Positions 6,776-35,929 of a stretch of DNA of 64,000 bases are shown piece after piece. The notes beneath the pieces were generated by a model, which was given only the letters and a program-made list of their open reading frames with translations, did not search any database and was not told the DNA's origin. Positions within the stretch are counted from its first letter, which is position 1, and every line of letters starts with the position of its first letter. The DNA comes from Polaribacter vadi (GTDB lineage: Bacteria; Bacteroidota; Bacteroidia; Flavobacteriales; Flavobacteriaceae): assembly GCF_001761365.1 (NCBI RefSeq), contig NZ_CP017477.1, forward strand, positions 2,284,001 to 2,348,000. Reading direction: 5' to 3'. The translations under genes were made by a program, and so were the position numbers.

Positions 6776-6817
6776 TGTAATCGATTACAAATATATTAAT
6801 TTGTAACTTATATGCAA
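6776..6817 (-). promoter_or_regulatory. Promoter with embedded pectin operator for the GH28 operon
   Basis: The perfect 14-base palindrome TGTAATCGATTACA lies at 6776-6789. On the minus strand it directly follows and shares two bases with the -7 element TATATTTG (complement of 6788-6795). A TTG at the -33 position (complement of 6815-6817) is separated by 19 bases, as in the Bacteroidota consensus. A protein bound to the palindrome would cover the transcription start. The site also lies 210 bases upstream of the divergent lacI-type gene, which may therefore be autoregulated. Confidence 0.8.
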
Positions 6818-6900
6818 TTTTTTCGAGCAAAAAAGCATAGGATAGAATTCCGAGAATAATAATTCGTTTTTAATATTAAATAATATAGTATTTTCGCCTC

Positions 6901-6935
6901 GTTATTATAAGCTTGAAAAATTTTTTGATAATAAC
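6901..6935. repeat. Inverted repeat in the regulator's leader region
   Basis: GTTATTAT (6901-6908) and ATAATAAC (6928-6935) form an 8-base inverted repeat around a 19-base spacer, about 65 bases upstream of the regulator start codon. It could form a leader hairpin. The spacer is AT-rich and function is unknown. Confidence 0.35.
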
Positions 6936-6999
6936 ACCCTATTATTTTACAAATAAACGTTTTTAAATTTTAGGGTAACTGTAATTATAAATTAATAGA

Positions 7000-8022
7000 A
7001 TGACAAAAAAAACAACAATTTATGATATTGCTAAAAAACTAAACATTACTGCAGCAACTGTTTCTAGAGCTTTAAATAATAATCCTAAAATAAGTGAAAA
7101 AACCAAAGAATTAGTTTTTAAAACTGCTTCAGGAATGAATTATGAGCAAAATAAACTTGCTCAAGCTCTTAAAAGTGGTAAAAGTTTTAATGTTGGTGTA
7201 ATTGTTCCAAGAATTGATAGCAATTTTTTTAGTTCTGTAATTCGTGGAATTGAAGAAGAATTATATCCAGAAGGTTATCATGTAATTATTTGTCAAACTC
7301 ATGATCAACAAGAATTAGAGATAAAGAATATAAATTCTCTTTTAAACGCACAAGTAGATGGAATTTTAATGTCTATCTCGAATGCAAAGTTAGAAAAGAA
7401 TGCTGTCTTTAATAATCTTGTTAAAAAAAACGTACCTCTTATCTTTTTTGATAGAAAAAAAGACATAAAAAATGTTAGTTCTATAACAATTGATGATTTT
7501 AAAGGTGGTTATGAAGCAACAAGTCACTTAATACAGCAAGGTTGCAAACGTATAGCTCATTTATCAAATAACCGTAATTTAGAAATTTTTAAAAATAGAT
7601 ATTTAGGATATAAACAAGCACTTTTAGATAATAATATACCTTTTGATGAAAGTTTAGTTGTGGAAACTTTTAGTAAAGTTATAGAAGGTAGAGAAAAAAC
7701 GAGACTTTTGTTACAAATGGATAATCCTCCAGACGCTATTTTTTCTTCTAGTGATTTTTCTGCACTAGGAGCTATTGAGGAGATTAAAGAAAGTGGATTG
7801 AGAATTCCAGAAGATATTTGTGTTGTTGGCTTTAGTAATGAACCATTTACAAAGTTTATGGAACTTTCTATATCTTCTATAGATCAATCACCAATGGAAA
7901 TGGGTAAAATAACTGCACGTATGTTTCTTGATGAAGTTGCGAGTGAAGTTAAAGTAAAATTAGAAAAACACGTTGTGTTAACCCCTACATTAATTGCAAG
8001 AAAATCATCTTTAAAGATTTAA
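7000..8022 (+). CDS. LacI-family transcriptional regulator of pectin genes
   Basis: The 340-residue protein has the LacI helix-turn-helix at residues 5-42 (TIYDIAKKLNITAATVSRAL), followed by the hinge and a periplasmic-binding-protein-like effector domain. Full length and typical C-terminus (PTLIARKSS) indicate an intact gene. LacI proteins bind short palindromes with a central CG, usually as repressors released by a sugar ligand. Six copies of just such a palindrome (TGTAATCGATTACA and one- to three-base variants) lie at promoters of the pectin genes in this window and one lies in its own upstream region. I infer that this protein binds them and responds to a galacturonate-derived metabolite; the ligand is not visible in the sequence. 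It diverges from the GH28 operon. Confidence 0.9.
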   Translation: MTKKTTIYDIAKKLNITAATVSRALNNNPKISEKTKELVFKTASGMNYEQNKLAQALKSGKSFNVGVIVPRIDSNFFSSVIRGIEEELYPEGYHVIICQTHDQQELEIKNINSLLNAQVDGILMSISNAKLEKNAVFNNLVKKNVPLIFFDRKKDIKNVSSITIDDFKGGYEATSHLIQQGCKRIAHLSNNRNLEIFKNRYLGYKQALLDNNIPFDESLVVETFSKVIEGREKTRLLLQMDNPPDAIFSSSDFSALGAIEEIKESGLRIPEDICVVGFSNEPFTKFMELSISSIDQSPMEMGKITARMFLDEVASEVKVKLEKHVVLTPTLIARKSSLKI

Positions 8023-8165
8023 TTTTCCTACGTTATTAATAGCAAAAATAATATATAGATATTACAAAGACTGTTTATTAAGATTTGCTATATCTATAAT
8101 TTATTAGTTATTATTTTATAGATGCTTAATATTTTAACTTATTATAACATTTATAGTTAAAATAT

Positions 8166-8209
8166 TTTGTTAAGAAAAAAAAATATATATATTTGTGCAA
8201 TCGATTACA
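8166..8209 (+). promoter_or_regulatory. Promoter plus pectin operator for the susCD operon
   Basis: TTTG at 8166-8169, an 18-base spacer and TATATTTG at 8188-8195 give a near-consensus Bacteroidota promoter. The operator TGCAATCGATTACA (8196-8209), one base off the perfect palindrome, begins immediately after the -7 element. The SusC start codon follows about 92 bases later, leaving a long AT-rich leader. Confidence 0.8.
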
Positions 8210-34225: not shown

Positions 34226-34247
34226 ATATTAAAAATTTTTATTTGAT

Positions 34248-35651
34248 TTATATTTTAAAATAGTTTTTCGCATTATTGTAGCTTATATCTGCTACCATAT
34301 TACCAATCCATTCCATTTCTTCTTTTGGTAATTCTCCTCTTTTAATTTCATCACCTAAAAGATTACATAAGATTCTTCTAAAATACTCATGTCTTGGAAA
34401 AGACAAGAAGCTTCTAGAATCTGTTAGCATTCCAATAAAACAACTTATTAAACCCATGTTAGACAAAGCGTTTAATTGTTTGGTCATTCCATCTTTTTGA
34501 TCTAAAAACCACCATCCAGAACCAAACTGAACTTTACCTCTAACACTCCCATCATTAAAGTTACCAATCATAGTAGCCATAACTTCATTATCGGCAGGGT
34601 TTAAGTTATAAATGATTGTTTTGGTTAATTTATCCTTACTGTCTAAAGCATTTAAAAATGCTGATAATTTTTGTGCTTGTGGATAATCGCCTATAGAATC
34701 CCAACCTGTATCTGGCCCTAAAATACGATGCATACGTGCATTATTGTTTCTTAAAGCTCCTAAATGAAATTGTTGCACCCAACCATATTGATGATAGGTT
34801 TCTGCTAAAAATATTAGAAGTGCACTTTGGAATTTTAAAGCTTCATCTTGTGTTAAATTATTGCCTTCTCTTTTCTTTTTAAAGATCGCTTTTACTTCAC
34901 TTTCTGTAAAGTTTTCAAAATAAATTTGATCTAAACCATGGTCGCAAACGCTACATCCGTTTTTATCAAAAAAGTCAATTCTATTTTTTAAAGCATCACA
35001 TAAATCATCAAAACTATTTATTGATAAATTTGAGGCTTTCCCTAAAGCATTGATATAGTCGTTATAACCATCATTAGAAATTAAAATAGCTTTATCTGGT
35101 CTAAAAGAGGTACCAACTTTAATATCAATATTATTTTTTCTAATCTGTTGATGATATTCTAAAGTATCTGTTGGGTCTTCAGTGGTACAAACATATTCTG
35201 CATTTACTTTGCGTAATAAATTTTGTGTGCTATAATCTTTTGTGTTTACTTTTACTGAAACTTGTTCGTAGATTTTTTCTGCAGATTTCTCATTTAATAA
35301 ATCATACACATCAAAATAACGTGCTAGCTCTAAATGTGTCCAATGATACAAAGGGTTACGCATGGTGTAAGGCACTGTTTTTGCCCATTTCATAAATTTA
35401 TCTTTATCAGAAGCATCACCCGTAATAAATTTCTCATTGATACCTAAAGTTCGCATTGCACGCCATTTATAATGGTCGCCATTTATCCATACTTGAGTTA
35501 AATTATCAAATACTTTATCTTCTGCAATTAATTGTGGAGATAGGTGATTATGATAATCTATTATTGGTTGTTGTTTAGAGTAATTATGGTATAATTCTTC
35601 AGCGTACTTATTTTCTAATAAAAAGTTATCGTTTATAAAACTTTTCTTCAT
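34248..35651 (-). CDS. uxaC: Uronate isomerase
   Basis: UxaC converts D-galacturonate to D-tagaturonate (and glucuronate to fructuronate) in the cytoplasm. The 467-residue length is standard. The metal-binding IDYHNHLSP at 31-39 supplies His34 and His36; WWFLDQKDGM and DSRSFLSFPRHEYFRR near the C-terminus are also family signatures. It is the first intact gene of its operon. Directly upstream is a decayed short-chain dehydrogenase remnant, so the leader from the operator-bearing promoter to the start codon is about 250 bases long. Confidence 0.94.
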   Translation of the reverse strand: MKKSFINDNFLLENKYAEELYHNYSKQQPIIDYHNHLSPQLIAEDKVFDNLTQVWINGDHYKWRAMRTLGINEKFITGDASDKDKFMKWAKTVPYTMRNPLYHWTHLELARYFDVYDLLNEKSAEKIYEQVSVKVNTKDYSTQNLLRKVNAEYVCTTEDPTDTLEYHQQIRKNNIDIKVGTSFRPDKAILISNDGYNDYINALGKASNLSINSFDDLCDALKNRIDFFDKNGCSVCDHGLDQIYFENFTESEVKAIFKKKREGNNLTQDEALKFQSALLIFLAETYHQYGWVQQFHLGALRNNNARMHRILGPDTGWDSIGDYPQAQKLSAFLNALDSKDKLTKTIIYNLNPADNEVMATMIGNFNDGSVRGKVQFGSGWWFLDQKDGMTKQLNALSNMGLISCFIGMLTDSRSFLSFPRHEYFRRILCNLLGDEIKRGELPKEEMEWIGNMVADISYNNAKNYFKI

Positions 35652-35669
35652 TATCTCTTTTTTAAAATT

Positions 35670-35823
35670 TTAAACTTCGTTTAATGGATTACCTATTTTT
35701 GTTAAAAACCCACCATCAAAATACAAAATATATCCGTTTATAAAAATAGCTAGCTTTACTTGATAAAATTATAGCTACAACTGCTAAATCATATGGATTT
35801 TTCCATTTACTATATATTCTCTA
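35670..35823 (-). pseudogene. Decayed C-terminus of a KduD-like short-chain dehydrogenase
   Basis: On the minus strand one frame reads RIYSKWKNPYDLAVVAI and then ILSSKASYF; after a run of T residues (complement of 35742-35746) the reading must shift by one base to continue FINGYILYFDGG and FLTKIGNPLNEV, then stop. Joined, these match the end of short-chain dehydrogenases, where (R)WxNPxDL, FLSSxASxFxNG and the final VDGG are standard; the tail is most like KduD / gluconate 5-dehydrogenase proteins of Bacteroidota. A stop (TAG) directly precedes RIYSK in frame, and fainter similarity (VNSRTL in another frame) reaches about 35870. Only some 50-65 residues remain, with no start codon. KduD makes 2-keto-3-deoxygluconate from the unsaturated branch of pectin breakdown. 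Confidence 0.75.
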
Positions 35824-35907
35824 AGTGTTCTAGAATTTACAGTTTTAGTTAATTCTAACTCTAAAACAGCTACTTCATTTCTAGATTTATCTTTTCTAAA
35901 ATACAGA

Positions 35908-35929
35908 TGTAATCGATTGCACAAATATA
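35908..35929 (-). promoter_or_regulatory. Pectin operator and -7 element for the uxaC operon
   Basis: TGTAATCGATTGCA (35908-35921), 13 of 14 bases of the palindrome, directly follows on the minus strand the -7 element TATATTTG (complement of 35922-35929). A -33 TTG is not evident. The promoter lies ahead of the dehydrogenase remnant, consistent with that gene having once been the first of the operon. Confidence 0.78.

Follow-up and report, generated by a model that had tools for sequence, protein, structure and literature searches.

A predicted LacI-family regulator of pectin genes and its promoter-abutting palindrome in Polaribacter vadi

Genes for pectin depolymerization, transport and uronate catabolism lie together in a 64,000-nt stretch of the Polaribacter vadi genome (contig NZ_CP017477.1, positions 2,284,001 to 2,348,000 of the forward strand; hereafter the window), and the question raised by this locus is whether they answer to one regulator. 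A sequence-only reading had placed six copies of a palindrome at the -7 elements of their promoters and had proposed a local regulon, repressed by the product of the only LacI-type gene of the window (7000-8022; here P0001). Steric repression of the pectin genes by P0001, acting through this promoter-abutting palindrome, is the best reading of the sequence and a highly probable one.

Palindromes at pectin promoters in the window and in the genome

The window was scanned for the palindrome TGTAATCGATTACA with up to 3 mismatches allowed and with 100 shuffled sequences as control. At this level 11 matches were found for a shuffle mean of 5.77, and 6 of the 100 shuffles reached 11; taken by itself, the loose count in the window thus has no significance. 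All six proposed palindromes were recovered, with no mismatch at 6776 and 25623, one at 8196, 25906 and 35908, and two at 20664. Two further two-mismatch matches, at 4913 and 21535, fall within genes and were excluded, the earlier reading having rightly omitted both. Each of the six abuts, or overlaps by at most 2 bases, a -7 element on the strand of the gene, this element being an exact TATATTTG in four cases and a form with one mismatch in the other two. As a chance expectation for the window, whose intergenic GC is 21%, an intergenic position and strand has an exact TAnnTTTG at the allowed offsets in 39/8380 cases and one with at most one mismatch in 493/8380, which gives P ~7e-9 for four exact elements out of six and ~4e-8 for six out of six at up to one mismatch, both values being post hoc for the window. 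The signal resides in the palindromes with 0-1 mismatch and in their link to the -7 element, not in loose counts.

The same holds for the whole genome (3.81 Mb), in which 38 sites with at most 2 mismatches were detected as compared to 31 for the reversed pattern used as control. Since loose counts are near chance, only sites with 0-1 mismatch were used, or sites that have a -7 element and a conserved counterpart, as is the case for 20664, whose operator variant precedes the same gene in a relative (genome G046). Of the seven sites with 0-1 mismatch, five belong to the window and two lie outside (genome positions 966374 and 2460134), and all seven precede pectin genes. Scatter of the motif at unrelated promoters, the outcome that the sequence-only reading had set against itself, was looked for genome-wide and not found; the term "local" did not survive, the two outside sites also belonging to the regulon. 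The first of these, with one mismatch, is located at a PL10 pectate lyase gene. The second, also with one mismatch and with an abutting -7 element TACATTTG, precedes a gene whose 934-aa product has a PelZ-like region, a name that denotes resemblance as the match scores 110 bits for a family equivalog cut-off of 840 bits. Both these genes of lyase type, 0.17 and 1.3 Mb away from the regulator gene, seem to be part of the regulon. Among the 30 sites with at most 2 mismatches examined in context outside the window, 28 have two mismatches; 25 of these fall inside mechanically called open reading frames (ORFs) and three are intergenic (one within a 63-aa ORF), preceding a GSDH-type dehydrogenase gene, a biopterin-dependent hydroxylase gene and a DUF547 gene. 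None of these three has an exact abutting -7 element.

P0001 has as nearest sequence relatives in the PDB the CcpA proteins, followed by other LacI-family proteins including PurR. A Pfam scan covered 40 of the 41 window ORFs of at least 120 aa (all but the antisense ORF 23311-23757), and a genome search with PF00356 returned eight LacI-domain genes, one of them in the window; both agree with P0001 being the only LacI-type gene there. The palindrome TGTAATCGATTACA has the form usual for LacI/GalR operators, even and CG-centred, with AATCGATT invariant in a logo of 28 sites from relatives (see below).

Promoter geometry in relatives and co-occurrence with the regulator

Conservation was assessed in the best 80 of 199 stretches encoding a P0001 relative, with LacI identities of 64-79%. 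These loci contain 246 palindromes at up to 2 mismatches, as compared to 18 in the reversed sequences, and at least one with at most one mismatch in all 80. Because the loci were fetched around lacI, pectin neighbours are to be expected and the geometry relative to the -7 element is the independent part of the evidence. Among 160 non-redundant oriented sites, the exact -7 element ends at offset 0 in 27, at offset 1 in one and at offset 2 in five, while any other offset accounts for at most five. When the 177 main-type palindromes of the 80 loci are considered, a -7 element at offset 0-2 is exact in 91, carries one mismatch in 76 and is missing in either form in 10; controls displaced by 20-30 bp gave 34/1470 exact and 212/1470 one-mismatch elements. 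The gene following the 91 exact sites is kduI in 68 cases, a GH28 gene in 11, a SusC gene in four, a uronate-type major facilitator superfamily (MFS) transporter gene in three, uxaB in two and uxaC in one, with one gene unassigned and one lying off the locus; sites with a one-mismatch -7 element add lacI, CE8, PL10 and PL9 genes. In the logo built from 28 non-redundant sites whose -7 element is exact and abuts the palindrome (palindrome start taken as 0), TTG occupies -30 to -28, TAnnTTTG -8 to -1 and the palindrome 0-13, so that both Bacteroidota promoter elements, -33 TTG and -7 TAnnTTTG, are present at fixed spacing. The arrangement of operator against promoter is kept in many related bacteria.

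The -7 element of Flavobacterium johnsoniae promoters reportedly ends at about -4. The palindrome, which at most promoters starts where TAnnTTTG ends, would then cover about -3 to +11, where a bound dimer would stand in the way of RNA polymerase. In the mechanism that we propose, a P0001 dimer would bind the even palindrome TGYAATCGATTRCA and come off it in the presence of pectin, released by an intracellular effector for which galacturonate or an early intermediate of catabolism is the most likely candidate. Pectin depolymerases, SusC/SusD uptake, the tripartite ATP-independent periplasmic (TRAP) transporter and the uxaCBA pathway would then be made together. DNA binding, the start site, the effector and repression rather than activation are what we infer here from sequence. 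Some LacI-family proteins act as activators, and P0001 might be an activator or a dual regulator at these sites; we consider this very unlikely, for the first base of the palindrome directly follows the -7 element or falls within its last 2 bases at 6/6 window sites and, with up to one mismatch in that element, at 167/177 main-type sites of relatives (control, 246/1470), a position that normally excludes polymerase instead of recruiting it.

Co-occurrence of P0001 orthologs with the composite of palindrome and abutting -7 element was then evaluated in two sets of genomes. In the genus (58 genomes, own included; orthologs at 72% identity or more, the next best at 47%), an exact composite occurs in 3/3 genomes with an ortholog, own included, and in 0/55 without (Fisher 3e-5). 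In the family (149 genomes, nearly one per genus, with scoring limited in some of them to the first 14 protein candidates), the figures are 14/22 and 1/127 (Fisher 3e-13). Both Fisher values are indicative only because the genomes are related. Residues 18-19 of the recognition helix, which we take to be the counterparts of the specificity residues 17-18 of Escherichia coli LacI, are AA in 83/83 aligned P0001-type sequences. Across the phylum, 247 genomes were sampled and 26 of them have a P0001 relative at E <= 1e-90; the palindrome lies near the gene in 16/16 AA-type loci (15 genomes, own included) and in 0/11 loci with other residues, an association confounded with relatedness. Relatives of 45-56% identity in this sample differ from AA at 18-19 and lack such a palindrome in their vicinity. 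In G046, uxaC-TRAP is located 0.75 Mb away from the first P0001-type gene and yet carries the hybrid operator TACAATCGATTACA with an abutting TATATTTG. The computational forecasts of one LacI repressor, namely genome distribution, recurrence in relatives and ortholog co-occurrence, were thus borne out, binding and repression themselves being predictions. The sites, their -33/-7/palindrome geometry and conservation, the restriction of strong sites to pectin genes and the co-occurrence with the regulator are computed results.

Several observations weigh against this reading. The PL10 site has its palindrome across the annotated ATG, with the closest exact -7 element, TATTTTTG, ending 17 nt upstream; the fixed spacing claimed for the promoters is therefore no universal rule. 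The two mismatches of site 20664 put it among sites that genome-wide are mostly chance matches (38 versus 31). In relatives, exact abutting -7 elements are found at just 91/177 main-type sites and 10/177 lack even the one-mismatch form. A second palindrome type, containing ATCGATAAC, is present in most loci of relatives within ~90 bp upstream of lacI, and its sites have an exact -7 element in 0/68 cases and a one-mismatch one in 19/68; such a palindrome was not found, within 2 mismatches, upstream of the window's own lacI. With regard to co-occurrence, 8 of the 22 ortholog-bearing genomes of the family have no exact composite, genome G072 (fragmented, 84% complete) has one without a detected ortholog and, when one mismatch is allowed, the ortholog-less congener G045 has one as well.

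The second-type sites may reflect autoregulation of lacI. They also bear on the idea that the composite is a mere promoter feature, such as an extended -7 element or a start region, with no repressor involved. The composite is indeed position-locked to the -7 element, but the palindrome is symmetric, 14 bp long and CG-centred, it tracks the LacI ortholog, and its variant in relatives, mostly just upstream of lacI, occurs without an exact -7 element. We give this explanation almost no credit and retain P0001 as the putative repressor.

Sister LacI paralogs and the kduI-kduD genes

With eight LacI-domain genes in the genome, the palindrome might be bound by another paralog, or be common to two, so that the adjacent gene would not be the sole regulator. 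A case in point is a paralog (2728419-2729441) with 41% identity to P0001 that is divergent from kduI-kduD. Between them lies a palindrome, TACAATCGATTGTA, that differs from TGTAATCGATTACA at two symmetric positions; the operator of this locus (2728416-2731272; L123:13417-16273) is AATACAATCGATTGTATT, which shares the AATCGATT core with that of P0001. Hybrid sites TACAATCGATTACA also occur, one at genome position 2349700 and another at uxaC in G046. On the other hand, the exact 14-bp TACAATCGATTGTA is found in 6/6 genus genomes where this paralog has an ortholog, at most 240 bp from that ortholog each time, and in 0/52 others. These six of 58 genomes form another set than the three with a P0001 ortholog and the exact TGYAAT composite, and in G046, where P0001 orthologs and the composite are both present, the threshold used yielded no ortholog of the paralog. 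Residues 18-19 are SS in 6/6 members of the paralog's group and AA in 83/83 P0001-type sequences. Co-occurrence and residues were compared in this way for this one of the seven other LacI-domain genes. A shared or different binder of the pectin palindrome is improbable on these grounds, and P0001 remains the preferred candidate.

Three side observations concern LacI genes and their sites. The hybrid site at 2349700, half of each paralog's operator, lies ~55 nt before a gene for a glucose/sorbosone dehydrogenase with a type IX secretion system (T9SS) tail and is without an abutting -7 element. Another LacI paralog (46% identity; L123:9306-12290) is divergent from kdgK-eda, with a different palindrome-like site, TGGTTAAACGTTTAAGCA, nearby. 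In G046, a second P0001-type LacI gene (72% identity) adjoins uxaB-uxaA (L127:12173-16784) and has a perfect operator; no uxaC ORF is listed at that locus, uxaC-TRAP being 0.73 Mb away.

The order kduI-kduD-uxaC is found in 70/80 loci of relatives. In the window, 256 nt separate the operator from uxaC and hold the frame-broken tail of a kduD-type gene, while intact kduI and kduD are located at genome positions 2729622-2731269; the leader following the operator measures ~70 nt in genome G020 and ~105 nt in G046. The possibility that the 256-nt leader holds a riboswitch or another RNA was considered (fold z-score, -2.5) and rejected, as the kduD remnant explains the leader and those of G020 and G046 are short; Rfam at gathering thresholds found no RNA family in the window. 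A MAFFT DNA alignment of the uxaC leaders put the operators out of register across the differing leader lengths and was not used. Taken together, these data lead us to favour, with some reserve, a history in which two sister LacI repressors split uronate catabolism in the genus through the operators TGTAATCGATTACA and TACAATCGATTGTA, set by residues 18-19 (AA or SS), and in which kduI-kduD left the pectin operon in this lineage. A kduD scar would have remained behind an intact operator, the function now being provided by the copy beside the sister repressor. If true, the sister repressor would represent a natural two-base, two-residue specificity switch.

Comparison with known systems and features of the window

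One repressor over both pectin depolymerases and uronate catabolism has a precedent in KdgR of pectinolytic enterobacteria, a member of the IclR family, which is unrelated to P0001 in both protein family and operator.

The comparisons that follow draw on parts of the cited texts. In Bacteroides, the LacI-family uronate regulators UxaR, UxuR and KdgR were predicted by comparative genomics (PMC3878776, PMC4052901), and LacI-family motifs are described as mostly even palindromes with a central CG (PMC4052901). These regulators and P0001 share family, phylum and pathway (galacturonate, glucuronate and 2-keto-3-deoxygluconate, KDG), a likeness by description. A role of P0001 in galacturonate and KDG catabolism is suggested by operators before uxaC-TRAP-uxaB-uxaA here and before kduI-kduD-uxaC in relatives. 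ManR and AraR of Bacteroides, from other families, are cases of one monosaccharide regulator acting over extracellular enzymes and SusC/D (PMC3878776). The pectin depolymerases and SusC/D of Bacteroides thetaiotaomicron are assigned to HTCS_Rgu (HTCS, hybrid two-component system), the LacI regulators to monosaccharide catabolism. P0001, in contrast, would gather depolymerases, SusC/D, TRAP and catabolism, and no HTCS domain was found in the 40 of 41 window ORFs scanned with Pfam. A single soluble LacI repressor, whose promoter geometry is exact enough to be recognised in the sequence, seems to assemble the whole pectin programme, in place of the hybrid two-component sensors of the Bacteroides literature as far as consulted.

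In Gramella echinicola and Gramella portivictoriae, a LacI-family regulator is listed with kduI, kduD, uxaB, uxaC and kdgK in a pectin-like pathway (PMC4891872, PMC5306329). Induction by pectin is described for pelL, uxaABC, kdgK and eda of Gramella flava, the SusC-SusD genes of the pectin locus not being induced (PMC5306329), and lacI is listed with xylan loci in this species. The Gramella LacI genes are likened to P0001 by description only and, unlike here, the portions of these accounts consulted give no operator, regulon or promoter geometry. The promoters that bear the operator reproduce the -33 TTG / -7 TAnnTTTG consensus of Flavobacterium and Bacteroides (PMC4306948), with the -7 element here joined to an operator at fixed offset. 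The string TGTAATCGATTACA is also printed in a paper on Staphylococcus aureus CcpA. A lacI gene of starch-type metabolism, named in a study of structural colour in a Flavobacterium (PMC9131120), was discarded as having no relation to pectin. Literature on LacI with pectin, Bacteroidetes or Flavobacteria, covered mostly at title and abstract level and apart from subscription papers, yielded no flavobacterial regulon of this kind. It is well supported that P0001 would be a new LacI uronate regulator, one whose regulon is broad and whose operator is locked to the promoter, LacI uronate regulons as such being already known. The composite motif should allow annotation of the pectin regulon in many Flavobacteriaceae.

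The features of the window are collected in Table 1. The sequence-only reading had transport, depolymerization, monomer uptake and cytosolic catabolism all covered; the catabolism part does not hold, the cytosolic route encoded in the window ending at KDG. The kdgK-eda and kduI-kduD genes are found at a distance of ~0.44 Mb, each pair next to another LacI paralog. The CE8 gene likely starts at the ATG at 25606, the listed TTG at 25666 being located upstream of the promoter.

Table 1. Putative operators, the proposed regulator and associated genes in the window (operon extents follow gene order and strand)
Feature	Position	Strand	Basis or context
Operator TGTAATCGATTACA (6776-6789) sharing TG with -7 TATATTTG	6776..6795	-	before GH28 operon; conserved at GH28 in relatives
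-7 TATATTTG abutting operator TGCAATCGATTACA (8196-8209)	8188..8209	+	before SusC-SusD-DUF5123-GH43
Operator variant GGCAATCGATTACA, 2 mismatches, 1-base overlap with one-mismatch -7 TAAATTAG	20664..20684	-	before T9SS-tailed protein and Pel9A-like Big_2 lyase
-7 TATATTTG abutting perfect operator TGTAATCGATTACA (25623-25636)	25623..25644	-	before CE8 pectinesterase gene
One-mismatch -7 TAATATTG abutting operator CGTAATCGATTACA (25906-25919)	25898..25919	+	before PL1-CBM77
-7 TATATTTG abutting operator TGCAATCGATTACA (35908-35921)	35908..35929	-	before uxaC-TRAP(P,Q,M)-uxaB-uxaA
LacI-family regulator P0001, 340 aa, proposed repressor	7000..8022	+	PF00356 and Peripla_BP_3 (PF13377), above cut-off
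GH28 / BD-FAE esterase / DUF4861 / cupin / GH88 / Gfo-Idh operon	6746 down to 612	-	Pfam
SusC (8302), SusD (11590), DUF5123/DUF4957 protein (13396), GH43 (15035)	8302..17953	+	Pfam
Pel9A-like lyase with Big_2 (17981-19759) and T9SS-tailed protein (19807-20631)	17981..20631	-	domain search
Pectinesterase-domain (CE8) protein, 1606 aa	20786..25606	-	domain search
Pectate lyase (Pectate_lyase_4) with CBM77 and T9SS tail	25942..28215	+	Pfam
uxaC (34248), TRAP DctP/Q/M (33251/32758/31451), uxaB-type dehydrogenase (29974), uxaA altronate dehydratase (28335)	28335..35651	-	Pfam
Decayed 3' remnant of kduD-type short-chain dehydrogenase/reductase (SDR) gene in uxaC leader, two frames	35676-35811	-	tblastn with relatives' KduD, E 8e-10 over two pieces

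The adjacent part of the window (36362-63358) is a mannan-type locus with GH5, GH26 twice, GH130, an epimerase, an SSF symporter, SusC/SusD and two AraC-type regulators, the two AraC-type genes of the window being located at 37401 and 56374; no palindrome with at most 2 mismatches occurs in it. Finally, a perfect inverted repeat with arms AATTAAGAGTGAGT and ACTCACTCTTAATT is found at 20734-20771, between the end of the CE8 gene and the promoter of the T9SS gene; it is absent from the listing of the terminator scan and appears terminator-like by eye.

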